Shown here: positions 23,573 through 34,912 of the stretch, one piece after another
Numbering within the stretch: the stretch's first letter is position 1
How the letters are laid out: each line of letters begins with the position of its first letter
Source of the DNA: Clostridia bacterium
GTDB taxonomy: Bacteria > Bacillota > Clostridia > Oscillospirales > Acutalibacteraceae
DNA length: 64,000 bases
Direction: 5' to 3'
NCBI GenBank assembly: GCA_017625435.1
Contig: JAGAKX010000044.1
Span: 1-64,000, forward strand
Position numbers and translations under genes: made by a program
The notes under the pieces: generated by a model
What the model saw: the letters and a program-made list of their open reading frames with translations, nothing else
What the model was told of the DNA's origin: nothing
Database searches by the model: none

Positions 23573-23601
23573 ATTTTATTCAACTTTTTGTGTTTTGTCA
23601 A
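23573..23601 (-). promoter_or_regulatory. greA promoter
   Basis: Minus-strand TTGACA (plus 23596-23601), 17-base spacer, TAAAAT (plus 23573-23578), ~37 bases before the greA ATG. The -35 lies over the last codons and stop of the upstream dockerin protein gene. Confidence 0.7.
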
Positions 23602-25148
23602 GCATTTTCTGTCGGATCGGGAACGATAATGATACCGCCGTCAGGAGTTTCGTCAGGAATTTCACCCTTACCTGCCGCAATAATATCCTTGATGCTCTGA
23701 ACGATATTTGCAATACCCTCGTTTGAAACACCTTCTCCTCTGAAGCCGTTTACAATATCAAATATTGCAGTAATGAAATCGGAAACACCGCTCGTTACAT
23801 CATCAAGGGAGGGCAGCTCAACATCGTTTTCATCGTCGGGATTCTCAGGGTCCTCGGGATTTTCGGGGTCCTCGGGAAGCTCAGGAATATCGGGAACTTC
23901 TCCCTCTCCGGGGACTTCAGGCACTTCCTCTTCGGGAGGTGTAATAACTACAATCTTAATGCTTTCACCCTCGGGAACCTCAGAGAAAGGCTCGTCAAGA
24001 CCTACTGTCATACGCAGAATCTCTCTGGCGTCCGACGCACTTACAATACCGTCAAAATCAACATCGGCATATATAAGGTCACCGTCATTTTTTATTTTTT
24101 CAAGACCGACGCTGTATCTGAGTGCAGTTCTTGCATCGTTGGAATCAAGCTTGCCGTTATTGTCTATATCGCCGAAATATCTGGGGGTCCAGTCAAAATC
24201 GGAAAGTCTTATAAGAACATCGTACTGGATAAAAATAACTGTATCCTTGAGAACATCTCGTGCGGTAACCTCAGGATTTCCCGTACCCTGTAAGATGGGG
24301 TTTGCTATTGCAAGACCGATTTCCATAAGGTCAATCTTCGAGTATACGGAGAAAATTCTCATCAGATCATAAAAGGAGATTGAGAAGGTATAAGAAATTC
24401 TCTGCTCATACTTTGCAAGCTGCTTATTACCGTCAAAATCTGCCTGAACGTATGCATCGTGGTATACAAAATTATCGAATTTGATATCATCAAGGGGATC
24501 GTTTTCATCGTCAAATTCATCTGAACCGATAAGAACGGGATTAATAGCACCTGAAGGCAGGTCAAAAACCTTATTAAGGGAAGAGTCCTTTACATTTTCA
24601 AGGTCACAGTCCTCGAATGTAAAACGGATTTTTGTTGAATTTTCCTCGGGCTTGAGAATATCCGTGTTTTCTTCTGCAAACAGCGTAAATTCATCATCAA
24701 CCGTAAGAGCGGAAACATAGTCCTCGCCGTTCACGGGAAGAAGCGTTCCCGTATCAAGACCCTTGTATATTTCCTTGACTGTATCGGTTGAGCCGGTTTC
24801 TGTAAGAACAGCGATAAAGTTATTTACAAGACCCTTTTCGGGGTTAAAGAAGGCATCTACAAGAATTCCCAGATATTTTCTTGCATCATCGGAAATATCC
24901 GCAGCCGTCTTGGAGCCGATAACGATATTATTCTTATCCTTGCTCATTTCAGCCTTTTTGTAGTATGTAAAGGAAGGCTTTTCCTTTTTTATTGCATTGA
25001 CTGCATCATTGAAGGTATAAAGATACTGAAGTGTCTGTTCTTCATCAATAATCTGTGCGGCAAATGCTGTGCCGAACGTTGAAAAAACCATCAAGGAAGA
25101 AAGAATAACTGCAAGTATGCTCTTTAATAAGGTGCCGGATTTTTTCAT
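23598..25148 (-). CDS. Secreted protein with internal dockerin-type repeats
   Basis: 516 residues. Signal peptide at 1-31 (MKKSGTLLKS then hydrophobic core, ending AFA-A). Residues ~32-320 are an unrecognised domain. A dockerin type I-like pair follows at ~325-385: GDIDNNGKLDSNDARTALRY and ADVDFDGIVSASDAREILRM, with the D-x-D/N-x-D-G calcium-loop pattern twice. Dockerins bind cohesins on a scaffold. After it comes an acidic P/E/D-rich linker (~400-450) and a ~70-residue C-terminal segment; most dockerins sit at a terminus, so the internal position is unusual. Start at ATG 25148 with AAAGGCGG upstream; an in-frame start 12 codons earlier lacks a ribosome site. Own promoter. Function unknown; extracellular. 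Confidence 0.8.
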   Translation of the reverse strand: MKKSGTLLKSILAVILSSLMVFSTFGTAFAAQIIDEEQTLQYLYTFNDAVNAIKKEKPSFTYYKKAEMSKDKNNIVIGSKTAADISDDARKYLGILVDAFFNPEKGLVNNFIAVLTETGSTDTVKEIYKGLDTGTLLPVNGEDYVSALTVDDEFTLFAEENTDILKPEENSTKIRFTFEDCDLENVKDSSLNKVFDLPSGAINPVLIGSDEFDDENDPLDDIKFDNFVYHDAYVQADFDGNKQLAKYEQRISYTFSISFYDLMRIFSVYSKIDLMEIGLAIANPILQGTGNPEVTARDVLKDTVIFIQYDVLIRLSDFDWTPRYFGDIDNNGKLDSNDARTALRYSVGLEKIKNDGDLIYADVDFDGIVSASDAREILRMTVGLDEPFSEVPEGESIKIVVITPPEEEVPEVPGEGEVPDIPELPEDPENPEDPENPDDENDVELPSLDDVTSGVSDFITAIFDIVNGFRGEGVSNEGIANIVQSIKDIIAAGKGEIPDETPDGGIIIVPDPTENA

Positions 25149-25172
25149 TATTATACCGCCTTTCAGGTAAAG

Positions 25173-25201
25173 AGTATAGCACATTTATTTTTCGGGAACA
25201 A
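25173..25201 (-). promoter_or_regulatory. Promoter of the dockerin-containing protein gene
   Basis: Minus-strand TTGTTC (plus 25196-25201), 17-base spacer, TATACT (plus 25173-25178), about 25 bases before the ATG at 25148. Confidence 0.6.
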
Positions 25202-32253: not shown

Positions 32254-33114
32254 ATGAAAAAAATGCCTCTTGCTATCTTTTTAATTATTCTCGTTGTTTT
32301 CGTTTTTGCAGGCTGTTTAAGCTTTTCGGGAACACTTTCAACATCCACAACTGACCCCGAGGAAGAAATAACCTTTGACTCTCAGGAAAACACAACCTCA
32401 GTTGCTGTTATTCCCGGCAATCAGGAAAACACAACTGCTTCTGTTCCCGGCGGAGAGGATGCTACAAATCCCGCTCCCGAAGTTTCCACAGAGCCCACAA
32501 ACGAAAAGCCCATACAGAATACAGCTCCCGTATCAAGTGAATATGAGTTTCTCAAGAGCGGTTCCTTCCATATGGCAGGCACAATGGTAGACAAAACAGG
32601 TGTCACGGCACCTATGGAAGTTGCAGTCACACCCGACAGCATTTATATGCTTTCAGATTTCAGCGGTGTTCCTATGGGTATGCTTATAAAGGACAACAAG
32701 GTTTATATGATTTATCCCGACAAAAAGTCTTACCTTGAGCTTTCCGATTCTCTTATGAGTATGGCAGGGCTTGATGTTTCCGAGCTTACGAATTCAGAAA
32801 CCATCAACTTCGGCTCCTACGGAAATCTTTCCGAAGCAGACTCCGTAACAGAGGTTACTCATAACGGCAGAGTCTGTCAGGTTTACCACTTCAAGGTTGA
32901 CTCGGGTGAATCAAGAGTTTATCTGGACGGAACAAAGCTTGTACGCCTTTCTTCCTATGACAAAAACGGCAAGTTCCTTACTGCTACCGACATTTCAACA
33001 ATTTCGGGCAGCGTTCCTGCAGATAAGTCTGCTCCGCCCTCAAGCTACAAGGCATACAAGGGTATGACAGGTCTGTTCTCCTTTATGACCCTTCTTGAAG
33101 GCGTAATCGAATAA
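32254..33114 (+). CDS. Lipoprotein, paralogue of the dockerin protein at 34034
   Basis: 286 residues. Lipoprotein signal with lipobox VFAGC (Cys20), then a T/E/P-rich linker (~25-95) typical of a stalk through the wall, then a ~190-residue domain that is nearly the same as residues ~100-292 of the protein at 34034-34912. Shared blocks include YMLSDFSGVPMGMLIKDN, YMIYPDKK, YHFKVDSGE and RVYLDGTKLVRL. The domain resembles the outer-layer lipoprotein beta-sheet folds that bind lipids or peptides, but I cannot name a family. ATG at 32254 chosen because AAGGGAAA lies before it and because it gives the lipoprotein signal; a longer in-frame start at 32173 lies on the promoter. Outer face of the membrane. 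Confidence 0.85.
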   Translation: MKKMPLAIFLIILVVFVFAGCLSFSGTLSTSTTDPEEEITFDSQENTTSVAVIPGNQENTTASVPGGEDATNPAPEVSTEPTNEKPIQNTAPVSSEYEFLKSGSFHMAGTMVDKTGVTAPMEVAVTPDSIYMLSDFSGVPMGMLIKDNKVYMIYPDKKSYLELSDSLMSMAGLDVSELTNSETINFGSYGNLSEADSVTEVTHNGRVCQVYHFKVDSGESRVYLDGTKLVRLSSYDKNGKFLTATDISTISGSVPADKSAPPSSYKAYKGMTGLFSFMTLLEGVIE

Positions 33115-33115
33115 T

Positions 33116-33847
33116 ATGAAAAAGGTTGCATTGGTAACGGGCGGTGCAAAAGGAATCGGTGCCGCAACAGTAAAAAAACTGTGTGAAGACGGTTACGCAG
33201 TTGCAATCAACTACAACACTTCTGAGCAAAGGGCTTTATCTCTTTGCTCTTTTTGTGCTTCTGAGGGATTCACGGCGATATCCGTAAAGTGCGATGTTTC
33301 AGTCTCCTCCGATGTGGAAAAAATGTTTTCGCAAATTGAAGAAAAGCTCGGCACCGTTGAATTGCTTGTAAATAATGCAGGTGTTTCCCTCTGGGGGCTG
33401 TTTGATACCGTGACGGACGAAGAATGGAACAATGTCATCGGCACAAATCTTACAGGCACCTTCAACTGCATAAGAAGGGCAATTCCCTCTATGCTTAAAA
33501 ACAAATACGGCAGAATAATAAACATTTCCTCTGTATGGGGTCAGGAGGGTGCCTCCTGTGAGGCTGTTTATTCCGCCTCAAAAGCAGGAATAATCGGTCT
33601 TACAAAGGCTCTTGCAAAAGAATACGCCCCCTCGGGAATCACGGTAAACTGCCTTTGTCCCGGTGTTATTGACACGGAAATGATGAGTCGTTTTTCCGAT
33701 GAAGAAAAAGCAGCAATCTGTGAAGAAATCCCTGTGGGAAGAATGGGCACCCCTGAGGAAATTGCCCACGCAGTATCCTTTCTTGCAGATAAAAATTCCG
33801 CATATATCACCGGACAGATTCTCGGAATCAACGGCGGTATGATTTAA
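33116..33847 (+). CDS. SDR oxidoreductase, FabG-like
   Basis: 243 residues, classical short-chain dehydrogenase. NAD(P)-binding TGGAKGIGAA, structural NNAGVS, catalytic Ser in INISSVWG and the YSASK pair; the C-terminus ITGQILGINGG is typical of FabG (3-oxoacyl-ACP reductase). A single fatty acid role cannot be assumed, because no other fab genes are here. The ATG starts one base after the lipoprotein stop, so it is translated from the same mRNA. A hairpin follows. Its place between two surface-protein paralogues is odd and may reflect insertion or duplication around it. Confidence 0.85.
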   Translation: MKKVALVTGGAKGIGAATVKKLCEDGYAVAINYNTSEQRALSLCSFCASEGFTAISVKCDVSVSSDVEKMFSQIEEKLGTVELLVNNAGVSLWGLFDTVTDEEWNNVIGTNLTGTFNCIRRAIPSMLKNKYGRIINISSVWGQEGASCEAVYSASKAGIIGLTKALAKEYAPSGITVNCLCPGVIDTEMMSRFSDEEKAAICEEIPVGRMGTPEEIAHAVSFLADKNSAYITGQILGINGGMI

Positions 33848-33880
33848 CAAACCGAAAAATTTACTTTTCTCTCAGATTAC

Positions 33881-33911
33881 GGGGGCTGACAGGCTTTAAC
33901 CTGCAGCTCCC
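33881..33911 (+). terminator. Hairpin after the SDR gene
   Basis: Imperfect 12-bp GC-rich stem GGGGGCTGACAGG (33881-33893, one bulged A) / CCTGCAGCTCCC (33900-33911) with a 6-base loop, followed by TTATCTTAT. The T content after it is modest, so termination may be partial. Confidence 0.5.
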
Positions 33912-33958
33912 TTATCTTATATAATTTTAACACGGCCGATTTTACCATCTTTTTTGCA

Positions 33959-33986
33959 TTGACATATATTTTTTTAATAGTATAAT
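33959..33986 (+). promoter_or_regulatory. Strong promoter of the dockerin protein gene
   Basis: Perfect TTGACA at 33959-33964, 16-base T-rich spacer, perfect TATAAT at 33981-33986, 47 bases before the ATG at 34034. Among the best-scoring promoters in the window. Confidence 0.75.
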
Positions 33987-34033
33987 TTTTATATACAGAA
34001 TTATTTGTAATCTCTTTTGAACGGAGGAACATT

Positions 34034-34912
34034 ATGAAAAAGAAAATTATCGCGCTTGCTCTTTCTGCCTTTGTGCTTTTCAGCGTTGCGCACGTAACAG
34101 CAATGGCCCGCATCCCGGGAGATGTAGACGCAAACGGTAAAACGGAGGCTGCTGATGCAAGACTGGCATTGCGTGCGGCTGTAGGTCTTGATACACTATC
34201 CGAAGCTGAAAAAAATGCAGCTGACGTTGATATGAACAAAACGGTGAATGCCACCGATGCCCGTCTTATTCTGAGAGCGGCAGTAGGCCTTGAAAAGCTT
34301 CCCGACAACCCCTCACAGAATGAGGTACCCTCCTCAAGCGAATATGATATCATCCGAAGCGGCTCCTTCTGGATGACAGGCACAATAATTGACGGTAAAG
34401 GTATCAATTCCCCCATGGAAATTGCAATAACCCCTGAAAGCGTGTATATGCTTTCAGATTTCAGCGGTGTCCCTATGGGTATGCTTATAAAGGACAACAA
34501 GCTTTATATGATTTACCCTGACAAGAAGGCTTACCTTGAGCTTTCCGAGTCTCTTATGGCTATGGCAGGTCTTGACATTTCTGAGCTTACATCTTCATCT
34601 GACATAGACTTCAGCTCCTACGGTCCCCTTTCTGAGGCTGATTCGGTAACAGAGGCTACACATAAGGGCAGACTTTGCCGGGTTTACCACTTCAAGGTTG
34701 ATTCGGGCGAAACAAGAGTTTATCTTGACGGCACAAAGCTTGTCCGTCTTGCTTCTTACGACAGAAACGGAAAGTTCCTTTCCGCTACCGACATTACAGC
34801 AGTTTCAGAAAAAATTCCCGCAGACAAGTCTGCTCCCCCCTCAGGCTTCAAGGCATATAAGGGTATGTCAGGTATGCTCTCCTTTATGAATCTTCTTGAA
34901 GACTTAGCCTGA
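34034..34912 (+). CDS. Secreted protein with N-terminal dockerin repeats
   Basis: 292 residues. Signal peptide ~1-26 (MKKKIIALALSAFVLF, ending AMA-R). Immediately after it comes a dockerin pair: GDVDANGKTEAADARLAL and ADVDMNKTVNATDARLIL (residues ~28-90). The second calcium loop has K in place of the usual G. A short linker precedes the same ~190-residue domain as in the lipoprotein at 32254. Dockerins anchor proteins to cohesin-bearing scaffolds, so this twin is probably delivered to the cell surface by another route than the lipid-anchored one. GGAGGAAC stands before the ATG; own promoter and a strong bidirectional terminator. Confidence 0.85.
   Translation: MKKKIIALALSAFVLFSVAHVTAMARIPGDVDANGKTEAADARLALRAAVGLDTLSEAEKNAADVDMNKTVNATDARLILRAAVGLEKLPDNPSQNEVPSSSEYDIIRSGSFWMTGTIIDGKGINSPMEIAITPESVYMLSDFSGVPMGMLIKDNKLYMIYPDKKAYLELSESLMAMAGLDISELTSSSDIDFSSYGPLSEADSVTEATHKGRLCRVYHFKVDSGETRVYLDGTKLVRLASYDRNGKFLSATDITAVSEKIPADKSAPPSGFKAYKGMSGMLSFMNLLEDLA

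Follow-up and report, generated by a model that had tools for sequence, protein, structure and literature searches.

The locus raises the question of why two genes only 0.9 kb apart should carry one protein domain on two different anchors, a lipobox in the first and a dockerin in the second, and where each anchor leads. The window analysed is a 64,000-nucleotide stretch (contig JAGAKX010000044.1, assembly GCA_017625435.1) from a Clostridia bacterium of the family Acutalibacteraceae. The two genes, here called P1 and P2, flank a reductase gene, and the features are as follows.

32254..33114, +, P1, the lipoprotein form of the domain, 286 aa
32284..32316, +, P1 lipobox IILVVFVFAGC with predicted lipidated Cys21 (PROSITE PS51257 pattern)
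32317..32538, +, P1 stalk rich in T/S/E/P (by composition)
32536..33111, +, P1 predicted LolA-like domain, about 192 aa (alignments; AlphaFold pLDDT 85.6; Foldseek)
33116..33847, +, SDR reductase gene, FabG/YmfI-like, between P1 and P2 (NF047420, 271.5 bits, cut-off 238)
33959..33986, +, candidate P2 promoter, TTGACA-16-TATAAT, 12/12 (match to the sigma-70 consensus only)
34034..34912, +, P2, the dockerin form of the domain, 292 aa
34034..34108, +, P2 signal peptide, resembling that of the dockerin gene at C52:30.7 kb
34115..34270, +, P2 type I dockerin, loops DVDANGKTEAAD and DVDMNKTVNATD, calcium-ligand positions kept
34337..34909, +, P2 predicted LolA-like domain

The two genes and their shared domain

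P1 matches the PS51257 lipobox pattern up to Cys21, which is followed by a stalk of 74 residues (T 18%, S 14%, E 12%, P 11%), and the VFAGC lipobox was also present in the P1 orthologues of three other genomes (G006, G019, G013). No lipobox was found in P2. Its residues 28-79 match Dockerin_1 (PF00404, E=6.5e-7, 29.9 bits, cut-off 22.9) and resemble solved dockerins by sequence (1ohz_B, 9.8e-5), with two F-hand loops that, as read from the sequence, both hold calcium-ligand residues; the dockerin part of the AlphaFold model of P2 has low confidence, at about 55-65. These results bear out a preliminary description of the locus, in which P1 had been placed on a lipoprotein signal and T/E/P stalk and P2 on an N-terminal dockerin instead. 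The same description had called the C-terminal 190 or so residues of the two proteins nearly the same. Alignment confirmed the shared domain, with 147 of 206 residues identical (71%, E=5e-116), but the wording was slightly generous, as identity over the domain is 71-73% in protein and 80% in DNA. Recent gene conversion was considered as the source of the similarity and rejected, since fourfold sites agree at only 66% and at most one short block of 20 codons (97%) hints at it.

The reductase gene, correctly placed between P1 and P2 in the preliminary description, has its ATG one base past the P1 stop codon. The product scores above the cut-off of NF047420 (EF-P 5-aminopentanone reductase YmfI) and below that of the FabG equivalog TIGR01830. 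Among the three SDR proteins compared in this genome none reaches the FabG equivalog cut-off, and that of the window is the best.

No family was found for the domain in Pfam or NCBIfam, where whole P1 likewise gave no Pfam match; weak matches to DUF4367/DUF4412 stayed below threshold. An AlphaFold model made from 12 sequences reached pLDDT 85.6 and pTM 0.77, and the best solved structures retrieved with it by Foldseek were of the LolA, RseB and ependymin type (E down to 1e-7, probability 1.00, with moderate TM values of 0.38-0.52). Given these matches, a LolA-like half-barrel is the likeliest reading of the predicted fold. In established families this fold holds lipids or acyl chains. The domain is, as far as a model can tell, probably a binder of a hydrophobic ligand, and the binding activity supposed for it in the preliminary description would fit such a fold. 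Like LolA, RseB and ependymin (PDB 2w7q, 2v43, 6e8n), it is predicted to form a half-barrel with a C-terminal helix. It differs from them in being anchored and from a Gram-positive lineage, in having no Pfam family, and in showing no significant sequence similarity, the sole PDB match by sequence being a LolA at E=0.37.

The alignments show P2 to be a chimera. Its 5' part, comprising 35 upstream nucleotides, the signal peptide and the dockerin, aligns at 70% over 317 nucleotides with an N-terminal-dockerin gene at about 30.7 kb of C52 in the same genome, which encodes 1066 aa, while the remainder of P2 aligns with P1. We suppose that P1 was duplicated once the lineage had separated from the nearest sampled species, and that in the copy lipobox and stalk gave way to the start of an N-terminal-dockerin gene. 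The gene resembling the start of P2 lies within a cluster of five dockerin proteins (C52:23-48 kb; L168, L164, L173).

Anchor exchange across the genus

The domain was searched for in a sample of 26 genomes of the genus, which are ruminant-gut Clostridia and hold about 80 copies. It was found in all 26 genomes, and the search for further copies in the window's own genome, proposed earlier, gave none beyond P1 and P2. Several of the related MAGs that carry it were obtained from sheep or goat gut. Weaker copies were seen in a few further genera of the family, and among 394 genomes of the order weak matches occurred in just two genomes outside the genus, so that the domain is close to genus-specific. 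One further match, in G030 (L059), was discarded as probably due to chance, since it scored lowest and lacked every one of the anchors; the 24,195-residue frame that seemed to enclose the G015 copy was an artefact produced by masked N bases.

The copies that could be classified had a lipobox (36), an N-terminal dockerin (35), a membrane helix (4), or both a kinase-like part and a membrane helix (3). In the last kind (L083:737-2584, L085:919-2745, L097) the domain probably forms the extracellular end of a receptor-like protein whose other part is weakly protein-kinase-like. Lipoproteins of about 540-580 aa were also seen (L098, L112, L115, L116), in which a region of Y-N/T-x-D-G-S/T-Y/F repeats precedes the domain.

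In a tree built by maximum likelihood from 72 copies, the dockerin label has to be gained or lost 12 times, seven of these changes being forced by starred branches, and a single dockerin origin was found in 0% of bootstrap trees. P1 and P2 are sisters (support 100/95), and so are the members of a second lipoprotein/dockerin pair (100/99) in G010, the MAG Ruminococcaceae bacterium RUG12807. Lipobox/dockerin pairs have thus arisen more than once, both times at this locus, and on the evidence of sequence and tree the domain has been hung on either a lipobox or a dockerin repeatedly across the genus. That one domain has exchanged its anchoring modules, as first proposed for the window pair, is strongly supported by the chimeric structure of P2 together with the at least seven forced dockerin gains or losses.

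Directly upstream of the SDR gene, 25 of the 26 genus genomes and one genome of another genus (G033) have a domain copy without a dockerin, and in none of them was this position found to be taken by a dockerin copy. In G005 the copy directly upstream of the SDR gene is preceded by a zinc ribbon and a membrane helix (L042:1985-3196). The order lipoprotein, SDR, dockerin was found in the window and in G010, and lipoprotein, SDR, lipoprotein in G019; no dockerin copy directly after the SDR gene was found in the nearest sampled relatives of the window's genome.

This restricted distribution would favour the view that P2 is a recent, lineage-specific chimera for whose function there has been no selection, and which duplication and module shuffling left behind as a by-product. 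We regard this as highly improbable. The reading frame is intact and the calcium-ligand positions are kept, 73% protein identity to P1 has been retained, the candidate promoter agrees with the consensus at 12 of 12 positions, and the same gene order is present in G010.

Cohesins and the other dockerin proteins

The preliminary description had made its dockerin reading depend on the presence of cohesin genes in the genome, and these were found. The genome, which is 97.6% complete, has two cohesin proteins with one cohesin each, and no multi-cohesin scaffoldin was found in it. One of the two (C44:59.4-59.95 kb) is by its motif a lipoprotein of 179 residues. The other (C22:58.95-59.73 kb) has a signal peptide, the cohesin, a T/E/P linker and an LPXTG-like tail, GPATGDTG-TM-KKRK; it scored 27.3 bits in one search and was unmatched in hmmscan, and an iterated search started from it recovered cohesins of the genus.

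Cohesins occur in all 26 genus genomes. A profile search found a single-cohesin gene in 26 of 26, always directly downstream of rpoD, although in G025, where the contig ends within rpoD, that gene was identified from its C-terminal motif. In the window's genome rpoD and the cohesin gene (C44:58.1-59.95 kb; L062:8078-9954; relatives in L177-L202) overlap by a few bases. The strict PS51257 lipobox is present in 22 of the 26 and absent in four, of which G017 (LCFAGC) fails merely by a cysteine. The protein of the window's genome scores 23.3 bits on PF00963, just below the cut-off of 24.1, with homologues reaching 44.8-49.8 bits, and the profile of the rpoD-linked proteins retrieves solved cohesins, the best being the scaffoldin of 3l8q (8.6e-10). 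By these profile comparisons the rpoD-linked protein belongs to the cohesin family. In the titles and abstracts of the open-access papers searched, no cohesin lipoprotein was described.

Dockerins number 32 in the window's genome and from 9 to 63 per genome in the genus. Thirty of the 31 dockerin proteins other than P2 were scanned. Many of the dockerin proteins are cell-wall hydrolases, and the domains found were CHAP, GH25, Amidase_3, S11 (D-Ala-D-Ala carboxypeptidase), LRR_5 and M28, as well as phosphodiester glycosidase and metallophosphoesterase; no plant-polysaccharide glycosidase family was present among the 30. With this cargo, the dockerin set of the genome looks, from its sequences, like a cell-surface system and not a cellulosome. 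Another dockerin lies in the window itself.

24021..24173, -, dockerin within a 528-aa secreted protein (23598-25184)

In that protein, encoded on the minus strand, the dockerin is in the middle and is followed by a P/E-rich stretch.

Proposed attachment of P2 and its implications

We therefore favour, at a probability of roughly 60%, the reading that P1 and P2 are paralogues which present one LolA-like domain on two interchangeable anchors, both leading to the cell surface. P1 would be lipidated and seated in the membrane on its stalk, a permanent anchor made together with the SDR. P2 would be secreted free and then caught by a cohesin in a calcium-dependent manner, its anchor being reversible and in common use with some 31 further dockerin proteins, and its expression probably driven from a promoter of its own. 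The likeliest receptor would be the cohesin lipoprotein of C44, which would bring P2 back to the membrane that P1 occupies, or else the C22 cohesin with the LPXTG-like tail. Since the only cohesins detected in the genome are two single-cohesin, cell-attached proteins, the P2 dockerin most likely, as judged from sequence, attaches its protein to that same surface indirectly. The earlier contrast of membrane and scaffold is therefore half right, its scaffold side finding no support in this genome.

Two other destinations for P2 have to be weighed. If the C22 cohesin were its receptor, the domain would be displayed in two layers, P1 at the membrane and P2 at the wall. The architecture of C22, from signal peptide to tail, suits such a role, and one sortase match above cut-off exists in the genome; however, the tail reaches only 14.9 bits on Gram_pos_anchor, below the cut-off of 20, and it is the rpoD-linked lipoprotein that was found in 26 of 26 genomes. 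We consider this wall attachment unlikely, though worth keeping in view. That the dockerin helps to build a cellulosome-like multi-protein scaffold, as first described, is very doubtful. Relatives do have proteins with several cohesins, or with a cohesin and a dockerin (G015 C37, C51, C55; G007 C152; G014 C33), from which the size of the scaffold is seen to vary within the genus. Against it, a genome of 97.6% completeness yielded two single-cohesin genes only, and none of the dockerin proteins scanned carried a plant cell-wall glycosidase.

Attachment of one functional module by a dockerin in one place and by another cell-anchoring module elsewhere has a precedent in Ruminococcus, as CBM37 of R. 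albus replaces the dockerin on enzymes orthologous to those of R. flavefaciens (PMC4081043). That exchange is between species, sets a dockerin against a carbohydrate-binding module, and concerns plant-wall enzymes, whereas in the window the forms are paralogues at one locus, the alternative to the dockerin is a lipobox, and the domain is not a known enzyme. In R. albus, too, dockerins are numerous and no more than one cohesin is present; that lone cohesin is an adaptor with a dockerin and not a lipoprotein (PMC4081043). A cell-fixed cohesin that receives dockerins is known in ScaE of R. flavefaciens, which has one cohesin and a sortase signal and serves as an anchor at the surface (PMC4081043). 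ScaE, however, is fixed covalently to the wall and forms the base of a large cellulosome, while the rpoD-linked cohesin has a predicted lipid anchor and no scaffoldin was found above it in the window's genome. R. flavefaciens furthermore has many dockerin proteins of unknown function, as well as peptidases and LRR proteins among them, and its authors have suggested that some cohesin-dockerin interactions may help to structure the cell surface (PMC2930009).

A broader proposal, to which we give rather less than even odds, is that the cohesin-dockerin pair serves in this genus as a general and reversible substitute for lipidation. The rpoD-linked cohesin lipoprotein, which every species has, would then receive at the membrane dozens of secreted dockerin proteins, including many cell-wall hydrolases, and in the course of evolution domains would be switched between a lipid anchor of their own and a borrowed one. 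Dockerins are customarily taken as the mark of a cellulosome. The genus departs from that reading, with 9-63 dockerins per genome, one conserved cohesin (lipo)protein beside the gene for the primary sigma factor, and no scaffoldin detected in the window's genome. If its dockerins do plug into the rpoD-linked lipoprotein, the pattern of many dockerins and one cohesin, as seen in R. albus (PMC4081043), would gain a testable explanation, and the P1/P2 pair, with one domain on two anchors, provides a natural experiment.
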